Source: Candidatus Tectimicrobiota bacterium (GTDB taxonomy: Bacteria; JACPSX01). Taken from it: a stretch of DNA of 11,794 nt. The position numbers and the translations under genes were made by a program. Below are positions 5,052 through 11,794 of this stretch, in pieces. Location of the stretch: contig JACPSX010000177.1 of the NCBI GenBank assembly GCA_016193065.1, positions 1 to 11,794 of the forward strand, in the 5' to 3' direction. Under the pieces are notes generated by a model, which searched no databases, was not told the origin of the DNA, and saw only the letters and a list, made by a program, of their open reading frames with translations. Every line of letters starts with the position of its first letter. Within the stretch, counting starts at the first letter, position 1.

Positions 5052-5930
5052 CTACTTTCTGCCCCTGGAGCGCTCGGCGGCGATCTGCGCGGGTGTGACC
5101 GTGGGGGCCTGATTGCCCCAGCTCATGCGCTCGTGGTTCACTACGGCGGCAATTTCCTCGTCGGAAAGCTTATCCTTCCATGGGGGCATCTCCGCCGCGT
5201 AGGAGACGCCGTCGATGGGTTCTCCTTTCTGGCCGTTCAGGATAACCTCGATGTGCTGAGTCGGATCGGACGCTAGGACGTCTTTGTTTCCCTTCAAGGG
5301 AGGGAAGACGCCGGGAACTCCTTGTCCGTTTTGCTGGTGGCAGGCGGCGCAGTTCTGATTGTAGATCTGCAATCCCTTCTCCTGCCAGGCGAAGGTGCCC
5401 TTGCCCGCTTCCGTGGTCTTCTTTGCTGCGGAGGGCGGGCCGGCATCGGAAGGCGGAGAGGGTTGGGGAGCAACCCCGCCGTATGTGGGGGTGTTGGCAA
5501 ACTGGGGCGGGGGGCTCCACTGGCTGGTCAAATACCAGATTGCCCACGCCACAATGGCCAGGAAGAGGACCCAGGCCCAGGTCGGGATGGGTGCGGGGGT
5601 TTCGGCGCGCCGGGGCTCAAAGTGGACTTCCCCCTCACCACCATAAGCGTTGACGAGGATGGAGATCTCTCCTTTTACCTCGTCCCCTTCCGACAGGCCG
5701 GAGACCGTGATGGCCGGACCATTGTGCACGAAGAACTTCACTTCCCGGACGTTCACCACGTTTCGCTGATCTTTGGCTTCGACACGGAGAGTGTGGAGGC
5801 CATCGGGAAGCTTGTTCGTGTCCAAAGTAAACGTTTCAGGCGCGTTGAACTGGGTGAGCGGCTCGGTCTCGCCGTCCAGAAATACCTTGATTACGACTTC
5901 GTTATCGCTTGCTGCACCTGCGTCAGTCAT
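5052..5930 (-). CDS. Membrane-anchored monoheme cytochrome c with N-terminal Ig-like domain (CcoP substitute)
   Basis: A 292-residue protein in three parts. Residues 10-105 form a beta-rich segment resembling a bacterial Ig-like sandwich (LPDGLHTLRVEAKD, then VKFFVHNGPAITVSGLSEGD). One transmembrane helix spans 117-134 (TWAWVLFLAIVAWAIWYL). After a Pro-rich linker comes a class I cytochrome c domain with heme motif CAACH (Cys194, Cys197, His198) and probable distal ligand Met248 (AEMPPW). The helix resembles that of CcoP/FixP, and its place after ccoN, ccoO and a ccoQ-like gene supports a role as the oxidase's second cytochrome c subunit. Canonical CcoP has two hemes; this has one. There is no signal peptide, and Arg107-Arg108 precede the helix, so the Ig-like part is predicted to be cytoplasmic. 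It overlaps the preceding gene by 8 bp. Confidence 0.82.
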   Translation of the reverse strand: MTDAGAASDNEVVIKVFLDGETEPLTQFNAPETFTLDTNKLPDGLHTLRVEAKDQRNVVNVREVKFFVHNGPAITVSGLSEGDEVKGEISILVNAYGGEGEVHFEPRRAETPAPIPTWAWVLFLAIVAWAIWYLTSQWSPPPQFANTPTYGGVAPQPSPPSDAGPPSAAKKTTEAGKGTFAWQEKGLQIYNQNCAACHQQNGQGVPGVFPPLKGNKDVLASDPTQHIEVILNGQKGEPIDGVSYAAEMPPWKDKLSDEEIAAVVNHERMSWGNQAPTVTPAQIAAERSRGRK

Positions 5931-6373: not shown

Positions 6374-6964
6374 TTACTTTCCGGCGCCGGTTGACGGAGC
6401 ACTTACGGCCGGCTGTTTCAGTGCCAGGAGGTAGTCCACCAGTGCCAGAGCGTCGGGTGTGGCAACGACTACCTTCCCTTTGGGCTTCCATGCATCGGGA
6501 ACTGGAACCACCACCTCTCCGGGACCGGCTTGATCCTTCCGTTGGAAGTACCACCAGTACGCGGGCATGATGGACTCTCTGACTACGGCCCTCGGGTTAT
6601 AGAGGTGGATCAGATGCCAGGTGGAGCTAGGCTGCCGGTTTCCCACATTGGCCAGATCCGGTCCGGTGCGCTCGGTTCCCAGAAGTTGGGGGGTGCTGTA
6701 GGCGAAATCTCCCGGGGCCGAGGGTCGCCCAAAGATCTGGTCCTGGGGGAGGGGCCTCACCTGCTGGGTATGGCAGTAAGAGCATCCCTCAGCCACGTAA
6801 ATCTCCCGTCCCCTTTGCGCGCTCGGGCTCAGCGGCTCCAGGCCGGGGGCCGGGGGGACCTTGCTTGCTTCGATGGCCGGATAGATTGCAATGGCCAGGC
6901 TCAGGGCCACGAAAATCAGCAGCGAAGTAAGATATAGAAGCCGAGGGTTGGTGTGAAAGTTCAT
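6374..6964 (-). CDS. ccoO: cbb3-type cytochrome c oxidase subunit II (monoheme cytochrome c)
   Basis: A 196-residue membrane-anchored cytochrome c that passes electrons towards the CcoN catalytic subunit on the periplasmic side. An N-terminal helix (about 9-29) anchors it. The heme motif CSYCHTQQVRP (Cys61, Cys64, His65) is the FixO/CcoO signature, and the family pattern continues with RTGPDLANVGNR, WHLIHLYNPR and SIMPAYWW (axial Met133). The ATG at 6964 overlaps the ccoN stop by 4 bp (ATGA), so the two are translationally coupled. Length is close to that of canonical CcoO. The downstream gap before the ccoQ-like gene is occupied by element B. Confidence 0.93.
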   Translation of the reverse strand: MNFHTNPRLLYLTSLLIFVALSLAIAIYPAIEASKVPPAPGLEPLSPSAQRGREIYVAEGCSYCHTQQVRPLPQDQIFGRPSAPGDFAYSTPQLLGTERTGPDLANVGNRQPSSTWHLIHLYNPRAVVRESIMPAYWWYFQRKDQAGPGEVVVPVPDAWKPKGKVVVATPDALALVDYLLALKQPAVSAPSTGAGK

Positions 6965-8403
6965 TGCTCCCTACCCGACCTTGCCTCAACGGTCGATCTT
7001 GCGGCCGGCCGCATGTGGTATAGGTTGTAGGCAAACACCAGATGCCCCAGGATCATGAGCATCCCGCCCACGGCTCTCCACAACCAGTGGGGAGCCATGG
7101 CCACCACGGATTCCAGGAACGGCTTTTGTGCCGACCATAAGAGCCCTTGGAGCGTTCCTCCGACTGAAAGAGATGCCACGTAGATGGCCATCCCCACGGT
7201 GGACATCCAGAAGTGAACACCCACCGCTTTTACCGGAGGTTCCTTGCCTGTCAAGCGGGGAAGAAGCCCGTAAATTCCTCCCCAGATCAGGAAAGCCACA
7301 AAGCCGTACATGGTGAAGTGAGCGTGTCCCACGGTGAAGTTTGTGAAGTGCCAGGTGAGATTGGCTGTACGGAATGCTTCCAGAGTTCCCTGGGTGGAAG
7401 CCAGCCCATAAGAAATCACGCCCACCAGGATAAAGGGGAGTGAGTAACTGCGGCGGATCAGTCCGCCGATCCCCTTCATGGTTAAGAGAAAGTTTCCCGT
7501 GCCGGCCCATACGGGCACCATCATCCCCACGCTGAACACGATGGCAATGGTCTGGAGGAGCCAAGGAATGGGGCTGAAGATGAAGTGGTGTGTGCCAATG
7601 ATCGTGTAAAAGACCAGTTGCGTCCAGAAGCCCAGGACCCCAAGCGCGTAGGAATAGATGGGTCGATTCAGGAACAGCGGAAGAAAGTAGTAGGTCAGGC
7701 CGACGACTGTCGGGGTAAACCACATCCCCACCCCCTGGTGCATGTAGTAACCTTGAATGATGGTTTGCCCCAAACCGCGCTGGTACCAGGGGAGATAAGC
7801 AATCGTGGCCAGAACCAGCGTCCACAGGAAGGCGGAGAGGATGTACCAGTTGGAGATATAAATTTCCTTCATCTTGCGGCGCGCAATCGTGTTGTAGAAG
7901 TTGATTACGTGCAAGAGCAAGCTGGCCGCAAATAACAGGGCCAGGGGCCAGACGTACTCCCGGTATTCCTGATTGCCGTTGTTGATCCCGCTGGCCAGAG
8001 CCAGGGTTCCCATCAGGACCATCACGTTCCAGAGCCAGAGAGCTATCTTCGCCAGCTTCACGCTGTACAGTTCGGTCTTGGATGCCCTGGGTACCGCGTA
8101 GAGGGCCAGGCCCATCATGGCCAGAGAAGTCCACCCCCAGAAGACTGTGTTGGTGTGAATGGCCCGCAGCCGTCCGAAGGAGAGGAAAGGAAGGTCAAGG
8201 AAATCCGGGAAACGGAACTTGAGAGCCACAATCCCGCCGGCCAGGGTGCCCACCACGAGCCAGAAGGCGGCCCAGCCGAGATACTGGAAGAGAATCCGGG
8301 TGAGGACAGGGTCCTCCCGTGCCGAGGTCTCTGTGATCAACCGGGCGACGGATTGTTTGTAGAGGTCTGCTTCCGGAGCGCGTCTGACGGTTTGCCTGGC
8401 CAA
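6961..8403 (-). CDS. ccoN: cbb3-type cytochrome c oxidase subunit I (catalytic)
   Basis: A 480-residue polytopic heme-copper oxidase subunit that reduces O2 to water and pumps protons. Key residues are in place: His83 (RAIHTNT, low-spin heme b ligand), His222 (first CuB ligand), Tyr266 six residues before His272-His273, and GHAH with His360 and His362 (high-spin and low-spin heme ligands). The Tyr266/His272 spacing matches the helix-VII Tyr of cbb3 enzymes. The canonical CcoN string WYGHN is replaced by YYMHQ, so this is a divergent branch. Start: no ATG is available; TTG at 8403 has AGGAAGGG nine bases upstream. It follows tlpA by 90 bp and is coupled to ccoO. Confidence 0.93.
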   Translation of the reverse strand: MARQTVRRAPEADLYKQSVARLITETSAREDPVLTRILFQYLGWAAFWLVVGTLAGGIVALKFRFPDFLDLPFLSFGRLRAIHTNTVFWGWTSLAMMGLALYAVPRASKTELYSVKLAKIALWLWNVMVLMGTLALASGINNGNQEYREYVWPLALLFAASLLLHVINFYNTIARRKMKEIYISNWYILSAFLWTLVLATIAYLPWYQRGLGQTIIQGYYMHQGVGMWFTPTVVGLTYYFLPLFLNRPIYSYALGVLGFWTQLVFYTIIGTHHFIFSPIPWLLQTIAIVFSVGMMVPVWAGTGNFLLTMKGIGGLIRRSYSLPFILVGVISYGLASTQGTLEAFRTANLTWHFTNFTVGHAHFTMYGFVAFLIWGGIYGLLPRLTGKEPPVKAVGVHFWMSTVGMAIYVASLSVGGTLQGLLWSAQKPFLESVVAMAPHWLWRAVGGMLMILGHLVFAYNLYHMRPAARSTVEARSGREQ

Positions 8404-8493: not shown

Positions 8494-9084
8494 CTACTTT
8501 AAAATCGCTGCCAATTGTTTCTTGGACTCTGCGCTGGTCCAGTCCCGGGAGCCTACATGCTTGTACCGGATGATCCCCTTGCGGTCGATCAGTAAGGAGA
8601 CCGGGATCCCGACGACGCGGTACATGCGGAGGACTGACATGTCGGGGTCGAGCAGTGCGGGAAACGTCAGTTTCAACTCCTGCATGAACTCCTGTACCGC
8701 CTTCTTTCCTCCGCGGTCAATGCTGACGGCCAGGATCTCCAGGCCGCGGCTCTGATGTTGTTCGTACGCCTTCTGCATCGTCGGCATCTCCGCCCGGCAC
8801 GGAGGGCACCAGGTGGCCCAGAAGTTGAGAAACACCGCCTTCTTCCCGCGCAGGTCCGAGAGTCGTATGATCCGCCCCTCCAGATCCGACAGAGCAAAAT
8901 CCGGAGCCAAGTATCCCACCTCCGGACGGACCTCGGGAGCAGCACTCTTCCTGGTAGAGTAGATGTACCACACTCCCAGGGCCACCACCAGCAGAAGGGC
9001 TGCACCAGCTTTCCAGGAAAACCACCGCCACTTGCGCGGCATCGGCCCGCTTTGCAAGCCGCCGGGGTCGGCGACCTCTTCCAT
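8494..9084 (-). CDS. TlpA/ResA-like membrane-anchored thioredoxin
   Basis: 196 residues: one N-terminal helix (about 24-42) anchors a thioredoxin-fold domain outside the cytoplasmic membrane. The active site is WCPPC (Cys93, Cys96) in FLNFWATWCPPCRAEMP, and the cis-proline is at VVGIPV (Pro161), with the downstream LLIDRKG strand. Such proteins reduce disulfides in apocytochrome c or in copper chaperones, which fits the adjacent cytochrome oxidase genes with three heme or copper proteins to mature. I chose ATG 9084: AGGGGAAA lies upstream and the previous gene ends 13 nt away. The open frame runs to 9213, but that part overlaps the methyltransferase gene. It may alternatively act in general thiol repair. 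Confidence 0.9.
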   Translation of the reverse strand: MEEVADPGGLQSGPMPRKWRWFSWKAGAALLLVVALGVWYIYSTRKSAAPEVRPEVGYLAPDFALSDLEGRIIRLSDLRGKKAVFLNFWATWCPPCRAEMPTMQKAYEQHQSRGLEILAVSIDRGGKKAVQEFMQELKLTFPALLDPDMSVLRMYRVVGIPVSLLIDRKGIIRYKHVGSRDWTSAESKKQLAAILK

Positions 9085-9097
9085 GTCAGATTTCCCC

Positions 9098-9850
9098 TTA
9101 GGAGTTGCGGAGCCAGCGCGGAAGAAAGGCTGGTACCCGCCCTTTATATTCGACGAAGGCCTGGCCGAAAGCGGCGGCCAGATCCTGGTCCTCCTGTTGG
9201 GCCAATCGCACATACATCCCGATCAGGATCGGGGCCATCAGAAGCGTTGGTAGAGTCGGCCACTGGATGTTGAAGGCAAGGACGATGACGATCAGCCCGA
9301 TATACTGGGGGTGACGGATTATTCCATAAATCCCCCGGGTCACCAACGTTTCTCGTCCATGAAAGACCGTGTACCACCCCAGGGTCACTAAGCCTGCGCC
9401 GATAGCAATGAGGCCGACGCTAACCACCATGACCAGGTAGACTCCCGCGGAAATAGGGAGAAGCCCCAAGCGGTCCAGGGCAAAAGCCCAGAGATGGCTT
9501 TCGTTCATCCCGAAGACCCACGGAGAGAGGCCGAGAAACGGTGCCAGGAGGTAGATGGTCAACGGAATCCCGAACATCTCGGCAAACAGGGAGATGAGGA
9601 AGGCCGTGTAGATTCCAGTGTTCCGCCACTCCGCGCGACGCCTGGGTCTGGAGAATCCGAGCAAGAAGAGGGTGAAGAGTGCCGTCGCGATCAGGACGGC
9701 CCGCCAGTTCCCGTACCAGAGAGCAAAAGGAGTATCGTTGGAGTCAGGCCCGCGCTCCACGGTCATCCAGAGAAACCAGAGGCTCAGGCCAATGACCGCT
9801 CCCACGATTCCCCGGAGTACGATCTGCCACTTTCTCAAAGCTCTTTGCAT
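9098..9850 (-). CDS. Membrane methyltransferase-like protein, isoprenylcysteine carboxyl methyltransferase/PEMT type
   Basis: A 250-residue integral membrane protein with about six hydrophobic segments. Its C-terminal part carries the ICMT/PEMT pattern: LVTRGIYGIIRHPQYIGLI (Arg179-His180-Pro181) and, after another helix, an acidic element (QQEDQDL) followed by AFVEYKGRVPAFLPRW. In this superfamily these segments bind S-adenosylmethionine. Bacteria generally lack prenylated proteins, so the substrate of such homologues is unknown. The ATG at 9850 has AGAGGTG upstream. It sits 15 nt after the selenoprotein-like gene and 13 nt before tlpA, so it is part of the same transcript. A role related to the oxidase or to thiol chemistry is suggested only by this position. 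Confidence 0.78.
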   Translation of the reverse strand: MQRALRKWQIVLRGIVGAVIGLSLWFLWMTVERGPDSNDTPFALWYGNWRAVLIATALFTLFLLGFSRPRRRAEWRNTGIYTAFLISLFAEMFGIPLTIYLLAPFLGLSPWVFGMNESHLWAFALDRLGLLPISAGVYLVMVVSVGLIAIGAGLVTLGWYTVFHGRETLVTRGIYGIIRHPQYIGLIVIVLAFNIQWPTLPTLLMAPILIGMYVRLAQQEDQDLAAAFGQAFVEYKGRVPAFLPRWLRNS

Positions 9851-9865
9851 CTGGCACCTCTGCTC

Positions 9866-10480
9866 TCAAGCTGGACCCTTCGCCTGACGGAGCGCACGGA
9901 CAATCGTCCCCACGTGCTCGCCGAATTGGCGGTCGATCTGGCGTTCTCGGATCCGACCTTGCCGGTCAATCACGACGTAGCCCATATCGGCCATCTCCAT
10001 TCCGGCTCCTTTCATCCCGTACTGGCGGATCACATTCATCTGTGGGTCCGAGAGGATGGGGAAGGTGAGGCTAAGGTCAACAGCAAGTCTCCTGGCGTCC
10101 TCAGGATGGTCGATGCTAATGACCAGCACCGCTGCCCCCTCCTCTGTAAGTTCACGGACCGTTTCTTGCAGCTTCCCGAGCTGCAGTCGGCAACTGTCTC
10201 ATGTGTGGATCATGTAAAAGAGGAGGACGACCTCCTGCCTGTCGAGGTAGTCCTCCAGGGAAATTGTCCGGCCAGTAGAGGCCTGCAGGGTAAAGCGCGG
10301 AGCCTGTTCGAACTTCGCAGCCGTTCTATTCTGCAGCCAGGCAACCGCGCCGCCCCCTCCGACAATCAGTAACGCCAGGAGGACGCCAACAGTCCACTTC
10401 TTCCGCCGCCGCATTGAAGGATCCGGCTCCGAGGCACTTCTCTCACGTTGATCGAGTTTCTTTCTCCTCTTTCTTCCCAT
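9866..10480 (-). CDS. Probable selenoprotein: membrane-anchored peroxiredoxin/thioredoxin-like protein with U-x-x-C motif
   Basis: Two frames, 10480-10202 and 10198-9866, are in the same phase and separated only by TGA at 10201-10199. Read through, they give 204 residues: basic N-terminus, one helix (about 30-49), then an AhpC/TSA-type fold (RTISLEDYLDRQEVVLLFYM, active-site loop, VLVISIDHPEDA, LTFPILSDPQMNVIRQYG, MGYVVIDRQGRI). The TGA falls at residue 94, where relatives carry the reactive Cys after the LLFY strand, giving U-D-S-C with Cys97. A SECIS-like hairpin follows. Both halves are conserved in style, and the upstream and downstream genes are tightly spaced, arguing against decay. TGA is also used as an ordinary stop here, so general reassignment is unlikely. 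No cis-Pro is seen, unlike the neighbouring TlpA. The ATG at 10480 has GGGGGAG upstream. Sec machinery is not in the window. Confidence 0.8.
10167..10201 (-). promoter_or_regulatory. Candidate bacterial SECIS element with its UGA codon
   Basis: Downstream of UGA (10201-10199), after 13 nt, the mRNA forms a perfect 7-bp stem: UGCAGCU (10185-10179) and AGCUGCA (10173-10167), with loop CGGGA. Bacterial SECIS elements lie just 3' of the UGA, have a short stem, and carry a G within the first two loop bases; here G is the second. The apical loop starts 21 nt after the UGA, close to its position in E. coli fdhF as I recall it. A short extension GCCG/CGGU could pair below it. It lies inside the coding frame, as required in bacteria. 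Confidence 0.65.
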
Positions 10481-10560: not shown

Positions 10561-10719
10561 CTATGTTCCGGAAGCAACCAAACGACGCAATGTCTCCTCT
10601 ACCTCGCTCCGGGCCACGGGCCCGAAGAACCCGGCGCAGACGTGTCCGGTTCTGGATTTCGCCAGCGTCCCGGGGACCGCCTCACTTCTTCTCCTCTCGC
10701 TTGTCTTCCGGGCTCCCAT
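10561..10719 (-). CDS. Possible small ORF (52 residues)
   Basis: An ATG at 10719 opens a 52-residue frame ending at TAG 10561, overlapping the end of the preceding gene by 38 bp. The part outside that overlap reads sensibly (TGHVCAGFFGPVARSEVEET, then LRRLVAS). There is no clear Shine-Dalgarno site and I recognise no family. It fills most of the 200-bp gap before the selenoprotein-like gene. It may be chance or a gene remnant. A hairpin (GGACCG, loop, CGGTCC) follows at 10541-10557 and has no T-run. Confidence 0.22.
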   Translation of the reverse strand: MGARKTSERRRSEAVPGTLAKSRTGHVCAGFFGPVARSEVEETLRRLVASGT

Positions 10720-11200
10720 GCTGCGCCATCTTGGACATAGAGCGCATCATGAAATACATCCCGAGGGGGCAGGCGAGGAGGGCCAGCGCGGGGAGGAAGG
10801 CCCCAGCCGCCCCGAGCACGGCACTGCCGCCGCCCAGCAGGAAGACGAGGGCGAGAAGTGGGGCGCCCCAGCAGAGCCCCTTTCCGAGGTACGCCTTCCA
10901 GCCCCGCCGCTTCGGGGCCGCGTCCGCTGGCGCCTCGGCCGAGCTGACTTCGGTCGGCGCCTGAAGCGCCCGCGCGGCCGCTGCCTGGACTCGGGCCTCG
11001 CGGACGTTCCGGACGAACTCCTCCGCGTGGCCATCGGAACAGAATACCTCGCCGAAGCGCTCGATAGTGAGGCCATAGGCGTTTGTATCCGCGCCGCAGA
11101 ACGCACAGTAGCGTTCCGCAAGCTTCTCGAATCGCGTCCCTTTTCCGTCTTCGGGGAGCGCGACGTCCGGTGCCGTCTCTTTCTGCTGCTGTTCTGTCAT
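10682..11200 (-). CDS. Metal-ribbon membrane protein with DUF2933-like C-terminus
   Basis: 172 residues. The N-terminal part has YCAFCGADTNAYGL followed by EVFCSDGHAEEFV (Cys32, Cys35, Cys54, His58), a TRASH/YHS-like metal-binding pattern seen in heavy-metal proteins. An Ala/Pro/Arg-rich linker leads to a hydrophobic hairpin (about 108-153) ending LLACPLGMYFMMRSM, which resembles the CPLxxxFMMR end of DUF2933 proteins. The C-terminus is charged. The ATG at 11200 has AGGAGG seven bases upstream. It lies 28 nt after the CcdA-like gene, so the two are co-transcribed. A role in sensing, binding or moving a soft metal (copper, zinc or arsenic) is inferred from the Cys pattern and the neighbour. 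No precise function can be given. Confidence 0.6.
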   Translation of the reverse strand: MTEQQQKETAPDVALPEDGKGTRFEKLAERYCAFCGADTNAYGLTIERFGEVFCSDGHAEEFVRNVREARVQAAAARALQAPTEVSSAEAPADAAPKRRGWKAYLGKGLCWGAPLLALVFLLGGGSAVLGAAGAFLPALALLACPLGMYFMMRSMSKMAQHGSPEDKREEKK

Positions 11201-11228: not shown

Positions 11229-11794
11229 TCAGAGCGCCCAATAAGTCAGGGTGTCATTGATTCCCGCCAGAACGAAGATCACCCCGGAAATCCTAGTGAT
11301 CATCGGGCCGGCACGCTTGAGATGCTCGACAAGACCTCCCGCCGCTCCGCTCCCGACTGCAAGGAGGCCCGCGTACACCACGAGGGGGAGTGTGGTCCCT
11401 ACGGCGAAGAGCCCGGGGAACACCAGACCCGCGGTGCTCCTGAGCGCGAGCGGAATCATCAGGCCGAAGAAGAGCCAGAAGAGAGTCGGGCAGAAGGTAA
11501 ACGAAAACGACACTCCAAGAAGGAATGCCCCCCACGCTCCCTTGCGGGGGAGCCGCGCCCGAAGCCACGCCGAGACGACTCTACCCACCGAACCGCGGAG
11601 GCGTAGGACGCCCAGCAGGCCGAGCCCGATCACGATCATCAGCGGGCCCAGCGCCTTCCGCGCCGCGATCACCACCGGGACTACCGCGCTCTGGAGTTGG
11701 AGACCCAGCAGGATCACGGCGCCGCCCACCGTCATGTACACTAGGACTTTTCCGGAGATATAGGCCAGCGCCTCCCGCAGAGGCCGCCCCTCCC
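11229..11794 (-). CDS. CcdA/DsbD-type membrane protein (ArsG-like permease), 5' end outside window
   Basis: The frame is open to the window edge, so the N-terminus is missing. At least 188 residues remain, with about five hydrophobic helices. The stretch REALAYISGKVLVYMTVGGA and the later FSFTFCPTLFWLFFGLMIPL, with GLFAVGTTLPLVVYAGLL and a final GVIFVLAGINDTL, fit the DsbD/CcdA-type transmembrane family. FCPT...FFGLMIPLA...GTxLP is closest, from memory, to the ArsG-type efflux permeases. CcdA/DsbD proteins carry electrons across the membrane to thioredoxin-like partners such as the TlpA encoded downstream; one redox-type Cys is visible (FCPT), and any second would be in the missing part. A start inside the window (GTG 11741) is unlikely, because family-like sequence continues upstream. 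Confidence 0.7.
   Translation of the reverse strand, partial: EGRPLREALAYISGKVLVYMTVGGAVILLGLQLQSAVVPVVIAARKALGPLMIVIGLGLLGVLRLRGSVGRVVSAWLRARLPRKGAWGAFLLGVSFSFTFCPTLFWLFFGLMIPLALRSTAGLVFPGLFAVGTTLPLVVYAGLLAVGSGAAGGLVEHLKRAGPMITRISGVIFVLAGINDTLTYWAL

Follow-up and report, generated by a model that had tools for sequence, protein, structure and literature searches.

Does the interrupted gene at positions 10480–9866 (minus strand) of the 11,794-nt stretch of DNA that we analysed (the window) encode a single selenoprotein, and if so, what might that protein do beside genes for a cbb3 oxidase? The gene starts with an ATG at 10480, ends with a TGA at 9868–9866 and has 204 codons, its frame being interrupted only by a TGA at codon 94 (10201–10199, minus strand). 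The original prediction, which named no strand, described two same-phase frames joined only by TGA, at the catalytic position directly after an LLFY strand and with a Cys three residues later, and this description is accurate: the read-through translation around codon 94 is L-L-F-Y-M-I-H-T-U94-D-S-C97, which contains a UxxC motif. GC3 is 0.68 both before and after the TGA. A purine-rich stretch resembling a ribosome-binding site, GGGGGGAG, lies 5' of the ATG, and the stop codon is separated from the next gene by 15 nt (9851–9865), the spacing first reported.

The read-through protein contains a single domain that extends across the TGA. Pfam AhpC-TSA spans residues 58–179 (E = 2.7e-27), with a score of 95.6 bits (cut-off 26) for the read-through protein compared to 21.7 and 60.8 for its halves. 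Positions 3–33 of the profile match before the TGA and positions 41–123 match after it, in the same order, which bears out the earlier claim that the fold is continuous on both sides. An AlphaFold2 model of the selenoprotein (pLDDT 82.8) has a Prx/thioredoxin fold in which a helix (residues 95–113) starts right after U94, and among solved structures it matches AhpE and Bcp1 best, with Z scores of about 24 across some 144 residues. There is one N-terminal transmembrane anchor, at about residues 29–49. A K/R-rich N-terminus precedes it and residues 31–49 are hydrophobic; from this arrangement we predict a single membrane helix with the Prx-fold domain outside the cytoplasm.

Searches at the order and phylum levels around the source genome were empty, as the searched set contains no other genome of its phylum, and single-protein scans of genomic contigs and viral contigs gave no close homologue. 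We found the closest homologues in two other phyla, by searching two sets of genomes: 395 from the phylum to which a Geobacteraceae MAG belongs and 377 from that of a Myxococcales MAG. The best matches from both phyla contain in-frame TGAs, and alignment places either TGA (in most of these homologues) or Cys opposite residue 94, as expected if the TGA encodes selenocysteine. Among 28 aligned homologues, every TGA in the aligned region is at column 94, with Cys at column 97 and motifs such as HWUPFC, HWUPYC and DWUSHC, except for one TGA at column 97 in a TxxU peroxiredoxin (L175). Homologues that lack a TGA at column 94 have Cys there, or Thr in peroxiredoxins. On the well-supported branches of a tree of 33 sequences, the Sec label must have changed four times or more. 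Because of this tree and the occurrence of TGA, Cys or Thr at column 94, we regard Sec/Cys exchange at this site as recurrent. In the phylum of the Myxococcales MAG, 45 of the 377 genomes matched at E ≤ 1e-13, mostly with one in-frame TGA per match, and judging from these sequences UxxC Prx-like selenoprotein candidates (L166–L185 and more) look common there. L175 is from the same phylum; its motif is FTPGU, accompanied by a SECIS-like hairpin. A text search found no paper linking selenoproteins or selenocysteine to Myxococcota.

The TGA is followed by a bSECIS-like hairpin, TGCAGCT-CGGGA-AGCTGCA (10167–10185, minus strand), whose apical loop starts 20 nt past the TGA and contains a G. By a single scoring rule, which was chosen after the first hairpins had been seen, a score of 12 or more is reached at 25 of 25 Sec-type TGAs but at none of the 10 Cys/Thr codons scored in homologues; 10.6% of 3027 background TGAs also pass this threshold. 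The hairpin in the target gene scores 18, a value reached by 0.9% of background TGAs. When the same peptide was resampled with synonymous codons, 11% of the sequences scored as well as the target hairpin, so that the hairpin of this one gene is not decisive by itself. Across 16 aligned hairpins there are 10 double-change cells, and covariation was as high in 0 of 500 shuffles. The weight of the hairpin evidence lies in the comparisons between genes. A looser bSECIS criterion, passed by 32–34% of the background, was uninformative and was replaced by the stricter score. Rfam identified no RNA family in the window.

The source genome assembly (2.9 Mb in 294 contigs, 86.3% complete) contains some of the genes for selenocysteine incorporation whose presence the original prediction proposed to check: selB and two Sec-type selD genes are present, but our searches detected neither selA nor tRNA-Sec in it. 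The selB product scores 370.6 bits (cut-off 242) and carries SelB-wing_2 and SelB-wing_3 domains. Its gene starts 268 bp from the end of its contig, and our guess is that a linked selA may lie in the adjoining gap. The two selD paralogues (L028, C175, 8454; L029, C120, 4856), one of which is on the selB contig, themselves have an in-frame TGA at the catalytic position, in the motifs GAGUGCK and CAGUAGK. For tRNA-Sec, 150 of 508 candidates were scored and two pattern searches gave nothing tRNA-like; the Rfam tRNA-Sec matches above the cut-off were identified as tRNA-Trp and tRNA-Ser by ARAGORN. Four more thioredoxin-fold genes in this genome (L007, 1749; L008, 1753; L003, 1701; L005, 866) have a TGA in the active site (motifs TWUPSC, TWUHSC, FGUIFC and FTGGU), each with a SECIS-like hairpin 3' of it.

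An assembly or sequencing error in a TGC or TGT (Cys) codon, although imaginable in a single-copy contig from a MAG, is highly improbable in view of the six other catalytic-position TGAs in the source genome, the TGA at column 94 in at least 16 homologues from other genomes, and the SECIS-like hairpin that follows this TGA but does not follow Cys codons. We also find it hardly credible that the TGA is a true stop, leaving a 3' half that would be either what is left of a pseudogene or a small gene in its own right. TGA does serve as an ordinary stop in neighbouring genes, as had been pointed out, and such a reading would suit the failure to find selA and tRNA-Sec; moreover, an open frame 3' of the TGA has a chance expectation of 7%, so its existence is weak evidence if taken alone. 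However, a chance open frame is ruled out by the homology and by the aligned TGAs in relatives: one domain runs across the TGA, relatives in two phyla keep the column-94 TGA, Cys alternatives and the same hairpin, and the genome has selB and two selD genes. Genome-wide reassignment of UGA was rejected, since TGA terminates neighbouring genes and the genome carries Sec machinery. There is thus strong support for the conclusions that the split gene is really one selenium-containing redox protein and that its codon-94 TGA is selenocysteine, as originally proposed.

The protein is a divergent new member of a family that has already been described. A 'Prx-like thiol:disulfide oxidoreductase, PF00578, UxxC/UxxU' is included among predicted selenoproteins in reviews (PMC9312934, PMC13188914), and many Prx-like selenoproteins were counted in the Sargasso Sea and GOS studies (PMC1088965, PMC2398784), in agreement with the earlier statement that UxxC selenoproteins occur in peroxiredoxin-like families. 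Our protein shares with this family ('Prx-like 1' of the GOS study) the Pfam domain, the UxxC motif, the bSECIS-like hairpin and the existence of Cys homologues, but it is only about 28–38% identical to the UxxC homologues we found. It has YMIHT instead of YRGHW before the Sec, and Met166 at the cis-Pro column where most UxxC/CxxC homologues have Pro. It also has a transmembrane anchor, whereas lipoprotein-like N-termini are common, by eye, in the Myxococcota UxxC set. No curated NCBIfam model accepts it: the scores are 22.7 bits for PrxU (NF040737; cut-off 270) and 51.8 bits for the SelL-related redox protein (NF040769; cut-off 120), and the Pfam SCO1-SenC score (19.8 bits) is likewise below its cut-off of 22.8. 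PrxU, the TxxU selenocysteine peroxiredoxin, has the same AhpC/TSA fold, but in our protein the Sec is at the first motif position, not the peroxidatic one, and the Pro, Thr and Arg of peroxiredoxins are absent.

Less usual is the copper/cbb3 setting of the gene. In transcript order, all on the minus strand, the genes are a DsbD_2/CcdA-like membrane protein (11229–11792, its N-terminus lost at the contig end), a DUF2933-domain protein (10682–11200, with a YC-x2-C/FCSDGH N-terminus that by eye resembles a metal-binding site), the selenoprotein, an ICMT/PEMT-like membrane methyltransferase (9098–9850), a ResA/TlpA-like thiol-disulfide oxidoreductase with an ordinary CPPC (8494–9084; the ORF is listed from 9213, but 9084, just past the preceding gene, is the likelier start), and then a divergent ccoN-like cbb3 oxidase subunit I (6961–8403), a ccoO-like subunit II (6374–6964) and, further on, a ccoP-like c-type cytochrome (5052–5930). 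The link to a cbb3 operon had been called unusual and looks so: in 10 neighbourhoods of UxxC homologues, nothing matched the ccoN, ccoO or ccoP proteins of the window. The ccoN-like subunit scores 265.7 bits against an NCBIfam ccoN cut-off of 583, and among its closest relatives, at 53–62% identity, are proteins from Myxococcales, Geobacteraceae and Bacteroidetes; the matches in a ccoN scan came mainly from Bacteroidetes, with no syntenic Sec gene. The ccoP-like ORF reaches only 40 bits with the ccoP model, whose cut-off is 180, and a weak match to an Ig-like domain lies ahead of its cytochrome domain; the two parts of the ORF match separate places in relatives.

The genes flanking the selenoprotein gene have associations with copper elsewhere. 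In Alteromonas and relatives, a DUF2933–ICMT pair comes after genes for copper ATPases and cupredoxins in copper-resistance clusters (PMC8478169). The two genes are also adjacent on a Croceicoccus plasmid, and an ICMT gene of Pseudomonas mandelii is flanked by copper genes. For the DsbD_2 protein, homologues have CopY-type regulators or metal ATPases in their vicinity. In the tree, the selenoprotein is linked, weakly (83/64), to a Cys-type sister, L034, a CcdA-linked 'peroxiredoxin family protein' of a type found in actinobacterial copper-resistance loci. Cys homologues of this type occur directly after CcdA, with genes for CopC, a CopY-type regulator or a metal ATPase alongside; a Cellulomonas relative has CcdA, DUF305 and a metal ATPase as neighbours. 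The selenoprotein and the L034 type both have a transmembrane anchor, a CcdA/DsbD-like gene nearby, a Met-containing segment after a YG motif, and no Pro at the cis-Pro column. They differ in that L034 has Cys (TCQPC) in place of Sec and no cbb3 genes beside it, and identity between them is about 29–34%.

What, then, might the protein do? We consider it quite unlikely that it is a Sec-dependent, Sco-like metallochaperone/reductase on a Prx fold, binding or shuttling Cu(I) for cbb3 assembly; the sites envisaged for Cu(I), which are just as doubtful, would be Sec94, Cys97, Met166, Met90 and His92, together with a Met-rich loop at about residues 156–166 (GMKGAGMEMADM). TlpA/ResA and Sco are, like the selenoprotein as we infer it, thioredoxin-like redox proteins of the periplasm that are anchored in the membrane and connected with oxidase biogenesis, but the selenoprotein's fold is nearer to Prx/Bcp, its active site has Sec, and it lacks the CxxxC of Sco. 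A membrane-bound peroxiredoxin that uses Sec94 or Cys97 as its peroxidatic residue and clears peroxide around the oxidase is a somewhat better candidate, though still an improbable one. The predicted fold is nearest to the AhpE/Bcp peroxiredoxins, and Cys97 is aligned with the peroxidatic Cys of AhpE. Against this, most of the canonical P-x3-T/S-x2-C plus Arg signature is replaced (Pro by Met90, Thr by Sec94, Arg by Met166), so the selenoprotein is not a canonical peroxiredoxin, and the UxxC family is classed as thiol:disulfide oxidoreductases. We give a similarly low probability to a generic periplasmic thiol reductase, CcmG/ResA-like, that would serve the operon's c-type cytochromes and have no role in copper. 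The DsbD_2/CcdA-like gene upstream, and the ResA/TlpA-like and c-type cytochrome genes that follow in the same direction, are consistent with such an enzyme, but for that task the operon encodes a conventional ResA/TlpA protein with CPPC, and DUF2933 and ICMT point to copper.

The most likely function is that of a periplasmic, DsbD-fed reductase for copper handling or cbb3 assembly. SelB would decode the codon-94 UGA as Sec, guided by the hairpin about a dozen nucleotides downstream, a step that is well supported. The N-terminal helix is predicted to hold the protein in the membrane and to leave the Prx-fold domain on the non-cytoplasmic side, where Sec94 and Cys97 would act as a selenenylsulfide/selenol redox pair. 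Two genes upstream lies the gene for the DsbD_2/CcdA-like protein, a candidate electron donor that may re-reduce the selenoprotein with cytoplasmic electrons. The selenoprotein probably acts on oxidised cysteines, either in copper-handling proteins or in apo-cytochromes for the cbb3 oxidase, by analogy with Bradyrhizobium TlpA, which reduces ScoI and CoxB (PMC6696091). Our proposals for the electron donor, for export and for the copper/cbb3 role are read entirely from the neighbouring genes and the protein's architecture. Taken as a whole, the reading of this protein as a Sec-decoded, Prx-like UxxC oxidoreductase, anchored in the membrane, fed by DsbD and serving copper handling or cbb3 assembly, seems to us reasonably probable.

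Gene callers would cut this selenoprotein in two at the TGA. The genome it comes from, the sole genome of its phylum in the searched set, is rich in selenoproteins. The selenoprotein's location inside a DUF2933/ICMT copper module, beside cbb3 genes, makes a link between selenium, copper and respiration testable.
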